From a virus, in IMG/VR virus record IMGVR_UViG_3300025889_000407, positions 1 through 35,848 of that record: 35,848 nucleotides of DNA; one strand, 5' to 3'. Shown piece by piece: positions 1-35,848 of this stretch (its first letter is position 1; each line of letters starts with the position of its first letter). A program made the position numbers and the translations under genes. The notes beneath the pieces are model-generated. The model worked only from the letters and a program-made list of their open reading frames with translations. It had not been told where the DNA came from and made no database searches.

Positions 1-1256
1 CGACGCAAACAGGTACGGGGTTGGTTCAGAGTGGCACCGCAAATCGCATGGCCATTTTTACAACCATAGGCTCTACGGCTGCTGTCCCTGTTGTTGACTT
101 CGACGCCCGAGCATTCACCCCCGGCGTATCCACAGCAGTCTGCCCTGATGGTGCAACCTATACCGTCAATGGCAATGTCTCAATCAAGCAGAACATCCCG
201 AGCAAGTGGGATGCAGATGGGCCTTACGGGTATCTGGCTGAGGAGGCTAGGACTAATATTGCGTTGTATTCGGAGTCTTTTGCTGGTGCGGCGTGGGGGC
301 GCTCAGGGTCAAACTCAACGTATGCCGACAATTATGCTATTGCTCCTGACGGCTCTAAGACTGCCATGCAGCTTGTTGATGATAGCTCCACAGGGACTGG
401 CAATGTTTCTGTATATCAGTCAGTCACCATCGCTTCGGCCACAGATTACACCTTTAGCGCATATCTCAAGGCAGACCAGCTTAGTTGGGTTGCGCTGAAT
501 AATGTTCTTTTTGACACTGGTGGCACTGCTTGGTTCGACTTGGCAAATGGAGTGGTCGGCACAGTCGCTGGCTCAATGTCTGATGCAGGAATCGAATACG
601 CTGGAGATGGTTGGTACAGGTGCTGGGCTGTTTTTCAGTCTACAACCGACTTAGCTGGTCAGATAAGATTCTACCCCGCTCCTGCTGACAACACTTTGAC
701 CGTAGACCTCGACGGCACATCATCAATCCTAGTATGGGGCGCACAACTCGAAGCAGGCTCCTTCCCCACCACCTACCAGCCCACAGCAGCATCAAGCGTG
801 GCTCGCAATGCCGATGTGCTGACATACAGCGCAACGGGGAATGCTGATAGTTTCCCGATGACGGTGAGTGTTGATGTGACGCCTTCGGTACGGGCAACGC
901 TTCAGCGAATTATCTCTGTAGACGACAACTCAGCTAACAATCGAGTCCAAATCAACCTCAATAACGGGATTTCTAGGCTCTATGTTCAGGCAACAACAGC
1001 CCAAGCATCAATAGACGACACCTCCGTATTGATAATCGGTGGCACATCAACATTAACTGGCGCAGTGGCAGTGAATGACGTTGAAAGCTATACAAATGGA
1101 GTGAGCGTAGGCACTCCAGACACTTCGGCAACTATGCCGTCTGGGTTGCTGGAAATTGATATTGGTAGCTATAGCAGCGCTTATGCCAACGGCAACATCC
1201 GTAACGTCAAGATATTCAACAAGCGCCTCAATGACTCGCAGGTGAAAACGCTATGA
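1..1256 (+). CDS. Tail fibre/tail appendage protein, C-terminal part (5' truncated)
   Basis: The reading frame is open from base 3 to the TGA at 1254-1256 and has no convincing start. The first possible start is a TTG at 21, with no ribosome binding site, so the gene enters from outside the window. The product is a beta-rich, Thr/Ser/Asn-rich structural protein. It holds a segment ending in YLAEEARTNIALYSESF, which is typical of phage tail appendages, followed by a carbohydrate-binding or jelly-roll-like stretch (YTFSAYLKAD, WYRCWAVF, DLDGTSSILVWGAQLEAGSFPTTYQ). The C-terminal 150 residues resemble a second lectin-like beta domain. Its likely role is host-receptor recognition at the tail tip. 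It probably belongs to the same gene as the open frame that leaves the right end of the window, since the two ends carry the same domain style. The next gene overlaps its stop by 4 nt. Confidence 0.75.
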   Translation, partial: TQTGTGLVQSGTANRMAIFTTIGSTAAVPVVDFDARAFTPGVSTAVCPDGATYTVNGNVSIKQNIPSKWDADGPYGYLAEEARTNIALYSESFAGAAWGRSGSNSTYADNYAIAPDGSKTAMQLVDDSSTGTGNVSVYQSVTIASATDYTFSAYLKADQLSWVALNNVLFDTGGTAWFDLANGVVGTVAGSMSDAGIEYAGDGWYRCWAVFQSTTDLAGQIRFYPAPADNTLTVDLDGTSSILVWGAQLEAGSFPTTYQPTAASSVARNADVLTYSATGNADSFPMTVSVDVTPSVRATLQRIISVDDNSANNRVQINLNNGISRLYVQATTAQASIDDTSVLIIGGTSTLTGAVAVNDVESYTNGVSVGTPDTSATMPSGLLEIDIGSYSSAYANGNIRNVKIFNKRLNDSQVKTL

Positions 1257-2110
1257 ACTACATAAGCATTTGCACCGACCTGGCCCAACTCGCCACAGAC
1301 TTTCCTGACCTGTTCGATGCGGAAGCAGGCGACCCTAAGCGCGGCAAGCTGATTGGCTGGAGTGGCGACTACACTGTCTACAACAGCAACCAGAGCATGA
1401 AGGTGCTGACAAGCATTGAGGGCTTAGACGAGATTGCTGAGAAGGACTACATCACCGTTACATCATACGAGGAAATCTTTGGATACCGCAGACAGGTTGT
1501 ATTGGATGACGTACCTCAGTTCGGAGAACCTACGGTTACGGTTGTACCAGCCTACACCCCTCAAGTCATCACAAGATACGAGGACGATCTCGACAGGCCG
1601 ATTTACAAGGTTGTCAGACACGAAAAGCAAAAGACCGTAACAAGGACTCACGACGAGGAAGGGAATGAATACCCCGAGCCTCTGGTTGTCCCTGTAGTCA
1701 AAGTCTCATACACCTACACAGAGGACGGTGAGATCGACCAGACCATCGAGACCCCTGTCATGGTGCTGGATTATTACGAGACAACCGACGAGATCGAGGG
1801 CTACCACCAGAAGCCTATTTACGGCCCACAGCAGGAATGGATACAGGTGCTTGAGCCTACGGGTGAAGTGGACGAGTTTGATAACCCGATCATGGTGGAC
1901 AACGGCTACTGGCAGGATGTTGTGATTCCTGAATCATCCTACGAGACACCGAATCCCATCATGGAGGAAGTGCCGGGGAATGCAGAACTGAAAGCCCTGT
2001 ACGACTCCATCTATGACCAGACCCCTGTGACTGACGAGGAAGGCAATGTACATACGCCACCGAAGCTGTTTGCTGTGCCTGGGGGCGCTCCAACGGATCA
2101 CTTGCTCTGA
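1253..2110 (+). CDS. Hypothetical acidic virion-locus protein (285 aa)
   Basis: I do not recognise a family. The ATG at 1253 overlaps the tail fibre stop (ATGA arrangement). The N-terminal 70 residues look globular. The middle (about residues 75-230) is acidic and rich in Tyr, Val, Thr, Pro and Glu, with repeated short beta-like strings such as YEDDLDRPIYKVV and YETTDEIEGYHQKPIYGP. The C-terminus is Pro-rich. Its position directly after the fibre gene would suit a fibre-associated structural protein or a fibre assembly factor, but this rests only on position. No signal peptide or membrane segment is visible. The coding frame is supported by its length, its packing with both neighbours, and the absence of a better frame. 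Confidence 0.7.
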   Translation: MNYISICTDLAQLATDFPDLFDAEAGDPKRGKLIGWSGDYTVYNSNQSMKVLTSIEGLDEIAEKDYITVTSYEEIFGYRRQVVLDDVPQFGEPTVTVVPAYTPQVITRYEDDLDRPIYKVVRHEKQKTVTRTHDEEGNEYPEPLVVPVVKVSYTYTEDGEIDQTIETPVMVLDYYETTDEIEGYHQKPIYGPQQEWIQVLEPTGEVDEFDNPIMVDNGYWQDVVIPESSYETPNPIMEEVPGNAELKALYDSIYDQTPVTDEEGNVHTPPKLFAVPGGAPTDHLL

Positions 2111-2511
2111 TGTTTGGCTGGTTCAAAAGATCGCCTGAAGAAAAGTTCGCAAAGGCTGTCTATCGCCTTGATCGCGGGTTTGATTACAAGTCTGAGCGAT
2201 ACGAGAAGTTGTTTTCTGTCCCGATGTGCATTGCCAGGGGCGGCGGTGACTGTGATGACAAGGCGGATATGTGGTATCGCGCTCTGAAAGCATGGGGCTT
2301 TGCGCCGAAGGTTGTTCATGGTTCTTATCGTGGCGTCCTACACGCTGCGGTTTTGTGCTGGATAGGGCAAAAGAATTTCGTGTTCTGTAATGCAGAGGGG
2401 CGTCTGGCGGAGGCTGATCGCTACCTTGGCGGAAACATGACCGGGTACAGGATCTTGTCTGACGCCGATTATGAGATGTGGTGCAAGATGTACAGAGTTG
2501 ATCGCGTATGA
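2110..2511 (+). CDS. Transglutaminase-like cysteine protease-fold protein
   Basis: The 133-aa product carries the hallmarks of the bacterial transglutaminase-like fold. There is a Cys at residue 48 in GGGDCDDKA, a His at 78 in GVLHAAVL, and an acidic/amide position near residue 94 (FVFCNAEG), spaced as in the Cys-His-Asp/Asn triad. Members of this fold act as cysteine peptidases, amidases or cross-linking enzymes. The substrate here cannot be read from the sequence. The protein has no signal peptide. The ATG at 2110 shares a base with the previous TGA, and the stop overlaps the start of the PAS gene, so translation is probably coupled. Possible roles are processing or cross-linking of virion proteins or attack on host peptidoglycan peptides; all are inference. 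The third triad residue is less certain than the Cys and His. Confidence 0.72.
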   Translation: MFGWFKRSPEEKFAKAVYRLDRGFDYKSERYEKLFSVPMCIARGGGDCDDKADMWYRALKAWGFAPKVVHGSYRGVLHAAVLCWIGQKNFVFCNAEGRLAEADRYLGGNMTGYRILSDADYEMWCKMYRVDRV

Positions 2512-3002
2512 GCATGGAAAGGAAGGGGCGGTTTGACAGGATTGACCACCAGATCAGCCGGATCGAAAGCATCTTCGATAAGATGTCGGAAGCAGACCTG
2601 GAAAGTTTCGAGAAGGCGCTGTCCAACGACGGGCCTCTATCCGGGATGCTGGCTGAGTATTGCGAACACGCGCCCATCCCTATGTGGATGAAAAACCGTG
2701 AAGGTAAGATGCTCTGGTTCAATGAGACGTACACAAAAGTTTATGGTGATTTTGCCTCGGTGGAAAACTACATCGGCAACTCCGATTCGGTGGCATGGAG
2801 TGAAGAGACTGTCCTGAACTTTGACGAGAACGACAAAAAGGTAATTGAAACGATGGAGCCTGTCTTCTGCATTGAAAAGCTGTGGAACAGCAGGGTAAAG
2901 GAATACGAACTACTCCAGGTTATCAAGTGGCCAATAGCAGCGGAGAATAAAGTTGTGGTTGGTGTTGCAGGCTTGGGGGTAGGTTTTCACAGGGTAGCGT
3001 GA
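2508..3002 (+). CDS. PAS-domain protein
   Basis: This 164-aa protein has a short helical N-terminus (residues 1-45) followed by one PAS-like sensor domain (about 48-160). Typical PAS features are the opening APIPMWMKNREG, then LWFNETYTKVYG, a long central helix, and the final strands IKWPIAAENKVVVGVAG. PAS domains sense small molecules, redox state or light, or mediate protein contacts. No kinase, cyclase or DNA-binding output domain is attached. The ATG at 2508 overlaps the upstream stop, and the TGA overlaps the next start, placing it inside a coupled three-gene cassette in the tail region. A stand-alone PAS protein at this place in a podovirus is unusual, and I know of no established role for it. 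Confidence 0.72.
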   Translation: MSMERKGRFDRIDHQISRIESIFDKMSEADLESFEKALSNDGPLSGMLAEYCEHAPIPMWMKNREGKMLWFNETYTKVYGDFASVENYIGNSDSVAWSEETVLNFDENDKKVIETMEPVFCIEKLWNSRVKEYELLQVIKWPIAAENKVVVGVAGLGVGFHRVA

Positions 3003-3220
3003 TGAGCGACGATCTGGAAGAACAGACGAGTTTTGCGGTGCTTCGGCCTTTGATTATCTCGACGCTGAAAGACTTGAAGCAGGAGAGCAAAGACCAGGTG
3101 CAGGAGATCAACGACCTGAAGACAAAGTATGCGCTTCTGAACCAGAAGGTTGCTTTGTATGCGGCGGCGGTGAGTGCCGGTGCTGCCGTTGTCATTCAAA
3201 TGGCTAAGGAATTCTTATGA
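3002..3220 (+). CDS. Small coiled-coil, single-span membrane protein (XhlA/holin-like)
   Basis: The 72-aa product has a charged, heptad-like helix (residues about 15-48, LKQESKDQVQEINDLKTKYALLNQKV split over two turns of coil) followed by one hydrophobic span near the C-terminus (VALYAAAVSAGAAVVIQMA) and a short charged tail. This layout resembles XhlA-type or other small phage lysis/holin-associated proteins. I start it at the ATG at 3002, which overlaps the PAS gene stop; a GTG at 2999 is the alternative. Its 3' end overlaps tail tube A by 4 nt. It could be a holin, since no other holin candidate is evident, or a tail-associated membrane protein. The assignment rests on topology only. Confidence 0.6.
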   Translation: MSDDLEEQTSFAVLRPLIISTLKDLKQESKDQVQEINDLKTKYALLNQKVALYAAAVSAGAAVVIQMAKEFL

Positions 3221-3866: not shown

Positions 3867-4286
3867 ATGCCTAACGTAAAGATTTCAGACCTGACCCTGA
3901 AGTCATCTCCTGCCGGAACTGATGAGTTTGAGCTTCAGGAAACGGGCGGAGGTGCGTCAAAGAAAACGACCCTTGATGACATTTTGGGCGCGCTGACCGC
4001 TGCCAGGTGCCGGGTTAGTGGTGCGGGAACATTGCAAACCGGGTCTGTCGGCGTTACGAGCGCAGCGAAAACGGCATTGGGAAAGTATGACGTTACGCTT
4101 TCAAGCGCGATAACGAATGCTTCTACGGTGCAGCTTTTGGCAGGCGTTGTGTCCTCGTCAAACAGGATTATCACGACGAAGATGGATACCACGTTCACGA
4201 CAACTATCGTGAATGTTTGGATTACTGACAGCGCCGGAACCTATTACGACGAAGATTTCTCCTTGCTCGTTCTGGATGAAGGCTAA
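3867..4286 (+). CDS. Small structural protein, first of a paralogous pair
   Basis: The 139-aa product begins with an extended N-terminus (ISDLTLKSSPAGTDEFELQE) typical of phage baseplate or tail-attachment peptides that hold short motifs of the form LxxSSPxxTDE. It continues as a beta-rich domain ending in YYDEDFSLLVLDEG. It aligns over its whole length with the next gene: KSSP-x2-TDE near the N-terminus, L(Q/K)TGSVG in the middle, TNxxT, and DFS(L/I)LV(L/F)DE at the C-terminus. The likely role is a virion decoration or tail accessory protein attached at the A/B tail interface. That role is inferred from position between the two tail tube genes. The ATG lies 6 nt after the tail tube A stop. 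Confidence 0.7.
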   Translation: MPNVKISDLTLKSSPAGTDEFELQETGGGASKKTTLDDILGALTAARCRVSGAGTLQTGSVGVTSAAKTALGKYDVTLSSAITNASTVQLLAGVVSSSNRIITTKMDTTFTTTIVNVWITDSAGTYYDEDFSLLVLDEG

Positions 4287-4696
4287 TGGCTGACGAGGAA
4301 ATCAACGACCAGACGCTAAAGTCATCGCCAGTCGATACTGACGAGCTTTGGCTTGAGTCCAGCGGAGAAACTCGCCGGACGAGGGTTTCTGACATTCGCA
4401 ACAAATGGGTTCATGCCAGGGGGAGAGTTGATAATCTTGGATCTGGCAACCTGAAAACCGGGTCTGTTGGCATCGCCAGCATCAACCAAGTTGCTCCCGG
4501 CCAGGTTGATGTCACTCTTGAGAATCCGGTGACTAACGTCAACACGGCCCTTGTTTTTCTGACATCGCCTCTCAGTTCTGGCGGCGGTTACGTCACATAC
4601 GTTTTTCAGTCCACCACAGTCATTCGCGTTTATTCGTGGGTTTCTGGTTCTTACTGGAATGGAGATTTTTCAATACTGGTTTTTGACGAGGCGTAA
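4286..4696 (+). CDS. Small structural protein, second of a paralogous pair
   Basis: This 136-aa protein is a diverged duplicate of the preceding gene. The two share the N-terminal attachment-like segment (QTLKSSPVDTDELWLE), the central LKTGSVGIAS, the VTLENPVTNVNTA strand, and the C-terminal YWNGDFSILVFDEA. Overall identity looks low to moderate, so the duplication is old or the copies diverged quickly. The ATG overlaps the preceding gene's TAA by one base, and its own stop overlaps the tail tube B start by one base. The two copies may form a hetero-oligomer or alternative versions of one accessory layer. I cannot tell which from sequence. Confidence 0.7.
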   Translation: MADEEINDQTLKSSPVDTDELWLESSGETRRTRVSDIRNKWVHARGRVDNLGSGNLKTGSVGIASINQVAPGQVDVTLENPVTNVNTALVFLTSPLSSGGGYVTYVFQSTTVIRVYSWVSGSYWNGDFSILVFDEA

Positions 4697-31099: not shown

Positions 31100-32012
31100 A
31101 GCCGGTGAAGAAGCCGGTGCTGGCGCTGGAGATCCTTCTGGCGAAACCACTGAAACCCCTGAGTTCAACCTACTCGATACCGCCCCTGATTACGCGAAGG
31201 ATTGGGACGAGGTAAAGAACGCAAAGAGCCCTGAAGACTTCTGGCAGTGGGCGGATAACCTGAGATCGTTTCGTGGTCGTGCGGTTGCATTGCCTGGTGA
31301 AGATGCCAGTGATGAGCAACGCATGGAGGTCGCGCAGAAGCTCATGGAGCGAATGCCTGACCTGGTGATGAAGCCCAGGAATGCAGAAGAAGCGGCTGCG
31401 CTGTTCAAGTCTTTGGGGATGCCTGAAGATCCTACCGGGTACAACCTGGACGTTGAAGGCTTTGATCCTGACTCTGAGCGATTTGAGGCGGTACGGCAGG
31501 CGGCGCACCAGGCGAACCTGACTGAAGATCAATTCAAGGCGGTGTTTGGTGCTATGGCGCAGATGGAGGCAGAGGCTTCCGGTGAGCGCCAGTCCAGGGT
31601 CAGTGAGTCGATGTCTCAGCTCAAGACTGAATGGGGTGCGGCCTACGATCAAAAGATCGAAGGTGTGCGCCAGTTTATGAACCAGATGCAGCTCCCTCAG
31701 TCCTGGCGAGATGCTGAAGAGAACGGCCAGTTCGATGCGACTGACTACATGGCGATGGACGCGATGAGGCAGCGCATGGTTGGCGAGTCAGCGCCGGGCG
31801 CAACGAATGGTGGTGAGTCCGGGAAGCTGACCCCTGCGGAAGCTCAGGCGAAGATCGATGAGATCCGGGGCAACCGGGAGCATCCTTTCAACAATCCTCA
31901 TGCTGAACCAGGCGCAAGGCAGCGAGCAATCCAGGAAGTTATGGAGCTGTATCGAATGCTGCCTGGTGGCACTCAACAGGTGGCGACTGCCGCATTCGGA
32001 GATCCTCTATGA
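31077..32012 (+). CDS. Capsid scaffolding protein
   Basis: The 311-aa protein matches T7 gp9 in size (307 aa), place and character. It is acidic, with no strong fold in the first 40 residues, then extended helices (EDASDEQRMEVAQKLMERMP, RFEAVRQAAHQANLTEDQFK). It also has the GYNLDVEGFDPDSERF segment common in such proteins. It would guide capsid protein assembly into the procapsid and then leave. Unusually, the capsid gene does not follow directly: a lysis cassette and a long leader stand in between. Confidence 0.82.
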   Translation: MKYPLMNEAGEEAGAGAGDPSGETTETPEFNLLDTAPDYAKDWDEVKNAKSPEDFWQWADNLRSFRGRAVALPGEDASDEQRMEVAQKLMERMPDLVMKPRNAEEAAALFKSLGMPEDPTGYNLDVEGFDPDSERFEAVRQAAHQANLTEDQFKAVFGAMAQMEAEASGERQSRVSESMSQLKTEWGAAYDQKIEGVRQFMNQMQLPQSWRDAEENGQFDATDYMAMDAMRQRMVGESAPGATNGGESGKLTPAEAQAKIDEIRGNREHPFNNPHAEPGARQRAIQEVMELYRMLPGGTQQVATAAFGDPL

Positions 32013-32245
32013 AAGATAACCCTGAAGGCGTTGTAGGCTGGATGATTGGCGCGTGTATGATCTGGGCGCTGTTTGGTCTTATGCTCCTGGTGCTGTCTGG
32101 CTGCGGCACAACCGGATCTATCAGTATTGATGCTGGTCTGTTCGAGGTTGAAGTCAGCGGAACCATCGGTGATGGCGAGATCGCCAAGCCGAAGATTACG
32201 GTAGGAGGAAGTGATGAGCTTCAGCCCTCTGATCCTGACGTATAA
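32009..32245 (+). CDS. Small lipoprotein, possible spanin or lysis component
   Basis: The 78-aa product has a hydrophobic N-terminal helix (VVGWMIGACMIWALFGLMLL) ending in a lipobox LSGC with Cys32, followed by a short polar domain (FEVEVSGTIGDGEIAKPK). It is predicted to be a lipid-anchored membrane protein. Its position before DUF1353 and the endolysin fits an outer-membrane spanin or other lysis protein, but it lacks the Pro-rich tail of Rz1. The n-region carries only one Lys, so signal peptidase II processing is likely but not certain. Start overlaps the scaffold stop. Confidence 0.65.
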   Translation: MKDNPEGVVGWMIGACMIWALFGLMLLVLSGCGTTGSISIDAGLFEVEVSGTIGDGEIAKPKITVGGSDELQPSDPDV

Positions 32246-32576
32246 CCCTGATAATGACCCGTTTCTCCTGCACTCCAATTTCATTTGGTGGCATCATGGG
32301 TTGCCTGGCGGCAAGTACGTTGTCAGGGCCGGGCAGTCAACTGATCTCGCGTCAATTCCCATCGGGATGAGAAATCTGTTTGACCGGCTTGGGCCATCTG
32401 TCCGGGCTGCTATCGTTCACGATGATATGTGTCGACGCCAATGGGAAACCAGGAAGAAGGCGGATGATATGTTCTACCGGGCTCTGCTTGATTGCGGCAT
32501 GTCTCGTTGGAAGGCGAAGCTCTACCATCGAGGCGTTCGCGTTGGGGCCATGCTTGGCATAGGTGGCAACTGGTGA
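32214..32576 (+). CDS. DUF1353 family protein
   Basis: The 120-aa protein shows the DUF1353 pattern: a beta-rich start, STDLASIPIGMRNLF, RAAIVHDDMCR, KKADDMFYRALLDCG and AKLYHRGVRVGAMLG. The family is frequent beside phage lysis genes and has no settled function. I start at the ATG at 32214 because AGGAGG lies 5 nt upstream; the GTG at 32211 is too close to it. It overlaps the lipoprotein gene by 32 nt and the endolysin by 4 nt. Confidence 0.82.
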   Translation: MSFSPLILTYNPDNDPFLLHSNFIWWHHGLPGGKYVVRAGQSTDLASIPIGMRNLFDRLGPSVRAAIVHDDMCRRQWETRKKADDMFYRALLDCGMSRWKAKLYHRGVRVGAMLGIGGNW

Positions 32577-32950
32577 CATGGGAAAACTTCACCCGCGAAG
32601 AGTTTGCCTGTAAGTGCGGCTGCGGCAGGAACGAGATTCGGGATGAGTTCATCGATGTCATGCAGGAGATCCGTTCAGCGATTGGCAGTGCTCTCATTAT
32701 CAATTCTGGTTATCGTTGTCCTGACCATCCTATTGAGGCTTCAAAAGATGAGCCAGGAGAGCATTCAGAAGGCACATGCGCTGATGTCTCATGCTCGCAT
32801 CGCCTGGCGTTCCGGCTCAATAAGGCGGCAAGCAATCATCCGAAAATCACGGTCATAGGCGTCCAGCAAAAAGGAGGTGGTCGTTATCTGCACCTGGGGA
32901 TTGGGCCAGCAAAGCCTGGCCGACCCAGGCCGCATCTCTACTCGTATTGA
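32573..32950 (+). CDS. Endolysin, M15 family peptidase
   Basis: The 125-aa protein is a D-Ala-D-Ala carboxypeptidase-like (peptidase M15, subgroup 3) enzyme. FACKCGCGRNEI at the start and INSGYRCPDH are typical, and the zinc ligands fit His64 and Asp71 in GEHSEGTCADV and His107 in RYLHLGI. It would cut the peptide cross-links of peptidoglycan at lysis. It starts with GTG at 32573, overlapping the upstream TGA; an in-frame extension upstream runs through the DUF1353 gene. No signal peptide is present, so it needs a holin. Confidence 0.87.
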   Translation: MTWENFTREEFACKCGCGRNEIRDEFIDVMQEIRSAIGSALIINSGYRCPDHPIEASKDEPGEHSEGTCADVSCSHRLAFRLNKAASNHPKITVIGVQQKGGGRYLHLGIGPAKPGRPRPHLYSY

Positions 32951-34635: not shown

Positions 34636-34835
34636 GAAAGAATCTAAGAGAAGTTCTTACGTCGAAGAATGCTTCGCGTGTTCAAACAATGGTTGCTGCT
34701 GGCACGACAGACGAAGACATCGCTGGCGAGCTTGGCCTGAGTGTTGACACGATTGCGGCCTACGTCGAGAAGTCTGCGCTGCGAGCAAAGAAGAAAGCTG
34801 CGGCAAAGAAAGAACCATCGTCTGAGAATGAGTAA
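34632..34835 (+). CDS. Small helix-turn-helix-like protein (67 aa)
   Basis: The 67-aa protein has a helix-turn-helix-like segment (TDEDIAGELGLSVDTIAAYV, residues about 26-45) and a Lys/Ala-rich C-terminal tail (RAKKKAAAKKEPS). It may bind DNA. It lies among head genes rather than regulators, so it could equally be a small structural protein. ATG at 34632 overlaps the upstream TGA; its TAA overlaps the tail fibre start. Confidence 0.6.
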   Translation: MRKNLREVLTSKNASRVQTMVAAGTTDEDIAGELGLSVDTIAAYVEKSALRAKKKAAAKKEPSSENE

Positions 34836-35848
34836 TGCCCGAAGCTCTACAGGACATCAAACACGCCTACTTGTCGAACCAGGTGGGCGTAGGGGGCGGG
34901 ATACCGGAACTTGAAAATGAGTTCCTTCAAACGCTGACAGGCACGATTGGCGCGACAGCCGATCTTTGGCACGTTTATTGGGATCTGGTCAATGTCCCTG
35001 CTGGAGCTTACAACGACAGGGCTAAAGCCTGGCTTGTTTCCCTGGGTATTACGTCTGCCAGCCTGGAGCAGATGTGGAAAGATTTTTGGACGTACTATTA
35101 CACGTTTGTTGTAAACCTTACGTCTACCTTGACTCCGAATCACGGCGAGTCACGAACCCCCTCCTTCACCCGCGCCACCACAGCCACCTCTAAGGACGCC
35201 TACGGCAAGATTGTTCCTGCTCTGTCGAATCAGGCAAGGCTTGAGGGGAATCGGGTTGTCAGGAATCTGATCACTGCATCAGAGGATATGACGAATGCGG
35301 CTTATACCGCAGCAGATAACGCTGTTGTTGATTCGCCTACTCAGGCCACGTTCGATGGCACTACTAACGGTCGCATATTCCAGACAATGAATGTGGGAGA
35401 CGATGGCTCTCCTGCGGGTGCTAGGACGGTCGTGTTCAGCGTGTGGGTCAAGCTGATCAGCGGGACAGTTGCCGCAAATACTGATGTAAGCGTGGCAATC
35501 GGTGGCGACTTGATTACACCGGGAGGCTCGGTAGCCGAACAGTTCATAGCCAGCGAACTTAGCACCACGGAATCGAAAAGGTTTTCTGTTGTTGCTTACA
35601 GTGACGGAACAACAACAGGGCAGGTGAACGCTCTAGTCTACAGCGATATAGCAGTAACCCTCGAAATCACCAAATGGCAACTCGAAGAAGTCACAGGCAA
35701 CATCACCCACGCCTCCTCTGAGTATGTGAGTACAGGGGTTGGGACGGGGAGTGAGCTTTGGACAGACCCGTCAAACTTTACAGACGGCTCAAGCAACAAC
35801 TCAGAAGTCACGGTTTCGGACGGCGTTATCACTGGCACGTATGTTGAC
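34835..35848 (+). CDS. Tail fibre / tail appendage protein, N-terminal part (3' truncated)
   Basis: From the ATG at 34835 the frame runs exactly to the last base (338 codons, no stop). Residues 1-107 are helical and look like a virion-attachment domain (FLQTLTGTIGATADLWHVYW). From about residue 108 a beta-rich appendage begins with FTRATTATSKDAYGKI, RLEGNRVVRNLITASEDM, the same domain style as the fibre fragment at the left end. That left fragment would be the C-terminal part of the same gene if the map is circular. The fibre would attach under the connector and bind the host receptor. Confidence 0.78.
   Translation, partial: MPEALQDIKHAYLSNQVGVGGGIPELENEFLQTLTGTIGATADLWHVYWDLVNVPAGAYNDRAKAWLVSLGITSASLEQMWKDFWTYYYTFVVNLTSTLTPNHGESRTPSFTRATTATSKDAYGKIVPALSNQARLEGNRVVRNLITASEDMTNAAYTAADNAVVDSPTQATFDGTTNGRIFQTMNVGDDGSPAGARTVVFSVWVKLISGTVAANTDVSVAIGGDLITPGGSVAEQFIASELSTTESKRFSVVAYSDGTTTGQVNALVYSDIAVTLEITKWQLEEVTGNITHASSEYVSTGVGTGSELWTDPSNFTDGSSNNSEVTVSDGVITGTYVD

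Follow-up and report, generated by a model that had tools for sequence, protein, structure and literature searches.

The PAS-domain protein and the 72-aa membrane protein encoded side by side in the window (the whole stretch of DNA analysed, a 35,848-base virus record) have, in our estimation, an even chance of acting together as a unit of the phage lysis module, namely a membrane-tethered cytoplasmic PAS sensor that would time holin-type membrane opening. The proposal is built on the PAS fold, on a phage family of such proteins, on the split and fused layouts of this family and on its repeated linkage to endolysin genes, as established from sequence comparisons and predicted models.

Genome setting and the three-gene cassette

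Judging from its gene content, the record is that of a temperate podovirus: an integrase, a YqaJ/RecE-type nuclease, a terminase, a portal-type head-tail adaptor, a Phage_capsid_2 capsid and tail tube proteins are encoded, and the internal-virion-protein region contains a gene for a protein of 2,669 aa. Tail fibre-like sequence is present at both ends of the window (3-1256 and 34835-35848), as if a repetitive LamG-type fibre gene had been cut in a circular or permuted genome. The features considered below are the following.

1253..2110, + strand: gene without any family match (285 aa), between the tail fibre and the cassette; a context marker, outside the claimed mechanism
2110..2511, + strand: transglutaminase-like Cys protein (133 aa); Pfam Transglut_core match below threshold; C48, H78 and N94 invariant in three phages
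2508..3002, + strand: PAS protein (164 aa), helical in residues 1-52, with the PAS domain at about 53-162; split-type member of the phage PAS family
3002..3220 (or 2999-3220 from a GTG), + strand: helical protein (72 aa) with a C-terminal membrane segment at about residues 50-68; 75% identity in phage L002
32492..32950, + strand: M15_3 peptidase (Pfam PF08291, E 1.2e-8), encoded away from the cassette

The cassette occupies positions 2110-3220 of the + strand. A preliminary description of this DNA had reported three genes overlapping stop-to-start, and overlaps were indeed found at every junction: 1 nt between the upstream gene and the transglutaminase-like gene (TGATG at 2108-2112), 4 nt between the latter and the PAS gene (ATGA at 2508), 1 nt between the PAS and membrane genes (TGATG at 3000-3004; 4 nt with the GTG start) and 4 nt between the membrane gene and the downstream gene (ATGA at 3217). 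The cassette region yielded neither a promoter-like site nor an Rfam RNA match. In a second phage (L002; L003 appears near-identical to it and probably counts as the same phage), all three genes were found in identical order, with protein identities of 70, 66 and 75% for the transglutaminase-like, PAS and membrane proteins, respectively. Substitutions between the window and L002 amounted to 0.52-0.58 at codon position 3 and to 0.15-0.27 at positions 1-2. This conservation and this codon-position bias outweigh the presence of longer antisense open reading frames, and the cassette genes are therefore considered to be real. The conserved gene order expected in the preliminary description was thus found in L002; in a third phage (L007), the enzyme and a helical membrane gene were kept and the PAS gene was missing.

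The transglutaminase-like call, with its Cys and downstream His, was upheld by the invariance of the GGGDC48DD motif, H78 and N94 in the three phages, in the Cys-His-Asp/Asn order of the transglutaminase-like superfamily; C48-H78-N94 is a candidate catalytic triad. The Pfam Transglut_core match reached E 0.0015 and 19.2 bits, under the cut-off of 23.0. The predicted model (mean pLDDT 71.6) was weaker than that of the PAS protein and gave no PDB fold match at E ≤ 0.001, the best matches of this weak model being the cysteine protease 3isr and SseI (E 0.03-0.05). The GGGDC-D-D motif is also a feature of the BTLCP/LapG cysteine proteases (C93), and LapG (4fgo) provided the one plausible PDB sequence alignment, at a non-significant E of 1.7; the window protein differs from these proteases in being shorter and in having no evident signal peptide. 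The gene was found in only three distinct IMG/VR phages, window included, and no relatives were found in annotated phages. It is missing from nearly all the loci encoding a related PAS protein, and the enzyme is thus not a required partner of PAS. A cell-wall target is possible for this enzyme. A role as the only endolysin of the window phage was ruled out by the M15_3 peptidase, which is likely to be the main endolysin on the basis of its Pfam match; no obvious endolysin was found on the partial L007 contig, and the transglutaminase-like protein may be a candidate for this role in L007 alone. The M15_3 gene belongs to a second lysis-like cluster (32009-32950, lying between portal region and capsid gene), together with genes for a small lipoprotein and a DUF1353 protein (E 4.9e-18).

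The PAS protein, its family and its membrane partner

The window PAS protein matched Pfam PAS_4 with 19.9 bits, slightly under the cut-off of 23.1. This Pfam family was matched at E ≤ 0.01 by 17 of 18 members of the phage family, and the split-type PAS protein of L081 exceeded the cut-off (42.6 bits). A family profile from which the window and L002 had been left out matched the window protein with 80.1 bits (E 8.5e-21), i.e. four times the Pfam score. The AF2 model, made with 18 sequences, had a mean pLDDT of 80.7 and showed the canonical order of PAS elements, with two strands, helices and a three-strand sheet. When this model was compared with the PDB using Foldseek, 422 matches were obtained at E ≤ 0.001, with NifL, VqmA and LOV domains at the top. 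The PAS domains of NifL and VqmA ranged from 5e-8 to 1e-6 (5e-8 for the FAD-binding PAS of NifL, about 6e-7 for VqmA, the DPO autoinducer receptor), and VqmA of phage VP882 was matched at 1.2e-5. A sequence profile search of the PDB returned at E ≤ 0.01 only VqmA (three entries, E 1.6e-4) and BvgS. The predicted structure, the NifL and VqmA matches and the family profile all confirm the PAS domain announced by the preliminary description, which is also right in calling a stand-alone phage PAS domain unusual. By these comparisons the protein is a PAS protein, and the NifL and VqmA matches, which name no ligand, suggest that it binds one. Family positions P56, P58, W60, K62, N72, Y75, D93, D109, G152 and G155 are invariant, and they revealed no signature of a cofactor or ligand. 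A LOV light sensor was ruled out, since the family columns hold no conserved Cys.

VqmA (Vibrio cholerae and phage VP882) is the closest solved PAS protein by sequence profile and among the closest by fold, and its PAS signal is linked to phage lysis. It is a DNA-binding transcription factor with a C-terminal HTH, whereas the 164-aa window protein ends with the PAS domain and has no HTH; moreover, VqmA acts on the exit from lysogeny and not on the lysis module itself.

Relatives of the window PAS protein were found by tblastn in Cellulophaga phage phi14:2 and in Chryseobacterium phages MA9V-1/2. A degenerate DNA pattern of the PAS core matched 23 IMG/VR contigs, 22 of them with relatives; the remaining one (L027) looks like a chance match within another gene. 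A pattern match in L008 was likewise due to chance. Two further scans added L072-L074, L077-L079, L081 and L087. The family was found in about 25 distinct loci. Comparison with viral models using Foldseek, a selection independent of gene neighbourhood, retrieved proteins of Cellulophaga phages phi18:3 and phi19:1. The former (gp090, 172 aa, assigned by length) matched the family profile with 37.9 bits and the latter (gp108, 240 aa, assigned by length) with only 14.7 bits. On the contigs matched by the PAS-core pattern, all complete members outside the close relatives of the window protein have 189-217 aa, and most members of the family have about 190-217. Their layout is an N-terminal hydrophobic span, then a helical linker resembling a coiled coil, with the PAS domain at the C-terminus. 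The phi14:2 gp089 and MA9V-2 gp249 proteins (TM - coiled coil - PAS) share with the window protein the PAS family and a lysis neighbourhood; they differ from it in that PAS and membrane helix form one protein instead of the products of two genes. Their existing annotation is only that of a 'PAS domain-containing' or 'regulatory' protein, and no published function was found for either.

The window PAS protein has no membrane span and therefore departs from the layout with span and coiled coil in one protein. The span is encoded by the next gene, so the window is a split variant of the family, with PAS and membrane helix in two genes as in L002. The 72-aa protein, one of the few small membrane-protein candidates on the late strand of the window, has a single short Ala/Gly-rich hydrophobic segment at its C-terminus (17-residue Kyte-Doolittle mean of 1.86; range quoted 1.34-1.86). 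It had been described as a coiled-coil single-span protein. The membrane segment is retained here; the coiled coil is unsupported in the window copy by a crude heptad shuffle test, in which 656 of 2000 shuffles were as good, and is supported in the L081 relative (19 of 2000). The 72-aa protein matched no PHROG or Pfam holin family, and no match to XhlA (PF10779) was found in the window at E ≤ 1.

Split forms were also found elsewhere. In L081, the tail fibre, PAS, helix-membrane and GH108 endolysin genes follow one another in this order and all overlap. In single comparisons, its PAS protein matched that of the window with a BLASTP E of 7e-18 and its 69-aa membrane protein showed a weak likeness to the window one (E 0.002). 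This small late membrane gene adjoins the endolysin gene, i.e. it is in a holin position, whereas the window endolysin is encoded elsewhere. A PAS-only protein is encoded by seven Brevundimonas jumbo phages, and in one Brevundimonas phage, Kikimora, the gene overlapping the PAS gene encodes a helical protein with a C-terminal span. The split PAS/helical-membrane pair lies at 3953-4868 in L041 and at 3941-4871 in L042, both Brevundimonas jumbo phages. As the same parts occur in fused and in split form, the two window proteins are expected to work together (a Rosetta-stone kind of inference). The fused form has an N-terminal span followed by basic residues and the split form has a C-tail anchor; from this topology, the helical linker and the PAS domain would be cytoplasmic in both arrangements.

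Lysis genes around the PAS family

A verified peptidoglycan hydrolase was encoded within four genes of the PAS gene in 9 of 26 loci (distinct loci with usable context, grouped manually). About 6-7% would be expected per gene, and the binomial probability for adjacency, a statistic that ignores phylogenetic dependence, was 2e-5 at 6.5% and 6e-4 at 10%. A GH19 gene adjoins and overlaps the PAS gene in phi14:2. According to Pfam, the other hydrolases are GH108 (MA9V-2, L057 and L081), M15_3 (L021, where the genes overlap, L030 and L032) and Amidase_3 (L031 and L034). A DUF5675 gene is in the hydrolase position in three more loci (L033, 219-635 on the minus strand; L053, 847-1257; L056, 3266-3694 on the minus strand) and may itself be lysis-related. 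Neither a hydrolase nor DUF5675 was in range in 14 of the 26 loci, and in the window and L002 the PAS/membrane pair does not adjoin the endolysin gene. In T7-like phages, lysis genes come after the tail fibre genes, and the window cassette is placed likewise.

Lipoproteins and small membrane proteins accompany the PAS gene in several loci; PHROGs gave them no lysis name except for a weak holin match of phi19:1 gp107. In phi18:3, gp090 precedes genes for a multi-span membrane protein and for a glycosyl hydrolase, the latter annotated from its similarity to PF09374. In phi19:1, gp108 overlaps a multi-span membrane gene and a lysozyme is encoded five genes downstream. A 134-aa four-span protein with a holin-like shape and no PHROG match is encoded directly 3' of the PAS gene in L078 (5577-5981). 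With four types of endolysin, lipoproteins and small membrane proteins as its neighbours, the family is best assigned to the lysis module. Given the other holin-like membrane genes beside PAS in L078, phi18:3 and phi19:1, the PAS unit may be a holin partner instead of the holin itself.

A possible sensor of lysis timing and alternative explanations

In the mechanism proposed here, the PAS domain would be tethered to the inner membrane via the helical segment and, late in infection, would read the state of the cytoplasm as a small-molecule, redox or energy signal. The helical linker would transmit this signal to the membrane helix, and the assembly of this helix or of a neighbouring holin would be altered. 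Membrane opening would then be advanced or delayed and the endolysin released or activated. The unit would be a single protein in most relatives (membrane span, coiled coil, PAS) and the product of two overlapping genes in the window. The transglutaminase-like protein, which travels with the pair, would most likely be a hydrolase with an accessory part in the same stage; of the whole mechanism, this is the least secure component. The signal and the direction of control, the lysis timing, the action as a holin or holin partner, and the role and substrate of the enzyme are what we infer from the comparisons above. It is also conceivable, though we hold it more doubtful than the unit itself, that in several phage lineages a dedicated PAS receptor tethered to the membrane, fused or split, links holin triggering directly to a chemical or energy signal from the cytoplasm. 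Such signal-gated lysis would be post-translational and would form a class apart from antiholins that sense superinfection and from transcriptional switches based on quorum sensing.

No description of a PAS family tied to phage lysis, a holin or a spanin was found in the open-access literature. The PAS/membrane pair as a lysis-timing sensor is probably new; signal-responsive control of lysis as such is already known. In phage T4, a signal-responsive domain controls holin timing through the holin T and the antiholin RI (PMC11413866), and RI, which is periplasmic, is thought to sense superinfecting DNA (PMC8385771). The likeness is in the way of working, i.e. lysis timing that responds to a signal; RI differs in being periplasmic and in having no PAS domain. 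The mycobacteriophage protein LysF1b is a single-span N-out/C-in protein required for normal lysis timing (PMC13056207), and the coiled coil of D29 gp11 matters for lysis timing (PMC9671378). These two proteins resemble the proposed unit in layout only; they have no PAS domain and act in a Gram-positive-type host. Outside the T4-like phages, little is established on how lysis timing follows the state of the host cell. The PAS protein that recurs close to lysis genes in crAss-like phages, Chryseobacterium phages and others is a concrete molecule with which this can be tested. Isolates exist (phi14:2, MA9V-2 and phi18:3), which makes deletion, lysis timing and ligand work possible. If the proposal is true, a class of sensor domain would be added to lysis control, and proteins at present annotated as hypothetical or regulatory would be given a role.

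PAS domains commonly dimerise. The VqmA PAS domain itself does so (PMC8284805), which counts in favour of a PAS domain that binds no signal and serves for dimerisation or as a scaffold in a lysis protein anchored in the membrane (a holin partner or a spanin-like protein). The cassette would then act in lysis but not as a sensor. The lysis neighbourhood fits this explanation equally, and the invariant family positions include no evident cofactor residue (LOV Cys or heme His). It is unlikely all the same: polar and aromatic core positions are strongly conserved across very divergent phages, beyond the needs of a generic scaffold, and NifL and VqmA, the closest solved relatives, bind ligands.

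The cassette lies in a structural operon, with tail fibre genes on one side and tail tube A on the other, and in L002 and L007 it is always preceded by the homologue of the 1253-2110 gene, which itself comes after the tail fibre. Its products could thus be virion or tail-assembly proteins, the enzyme processing a tail component. However, the genes downstream of the cassette vary with the phage (tail tube A; a gene of no assigned function and then terminase; portal, in L007), and L009 has the tail tube gene and no cassette. The cassette is therefore modular rather than part of a tail tube operon. In phi14:2, phi18:3 and phi19:1, tail genes were annotated from virion mass spectrometry and PAS genes were not, which is negative evidence only. 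A virion role is accordingly judged quite improbable.

Another possibility is that the PAS protein is a signalling moron which, at the membrane, redirects a sensor pathway of the host, lysis genes being close because late accessory genes are usually inserted there. The Brevundimonas pair, which is flanked by a tRNA array and phoH and is more than about 20 kb away from any annotated lysis gene, and several other loci without lysis neighbours are in line with such a host-takeover role. It is nevertheless given little credence, as the PAS gene repeatedly overlaps genes for endolysins or holin-like proteins, the hydrolases being of several types. In addition, a slightly longer PAS pattern, whose added position would be satisfied by 17 of 20 aligned members, had zero matches in 257 Gb of cellular genomes, so that the domain is not a host kinase domain copied recently; two scans of bacterial genomes gave no relative.

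Genes for superinfection exclusion are usually expressed early or from a prophage. The function put forward by the preliminary description, namely envelope sensing with modification of a virion or wall target, or else exclusion of superinfecting phages, has in its favour that one operon holds enzyme, sensor and membrane protein, and it was set aside as very unlikely because the enzyme is missing from nearly all PAS loci, the cassette sits inside a late operon, PADLOC gave no defence-family match (for which reason a defence system was rejected) and the comparative evidence supports lysis better.

As a minor observation, two neighbouring genes flanked by those for tail tube A and the large tail protein (3867-4286 and 4286-4696; 139 and 136 aa) have the look of tandem paralogues, with a common start TLKSSP..TDE...
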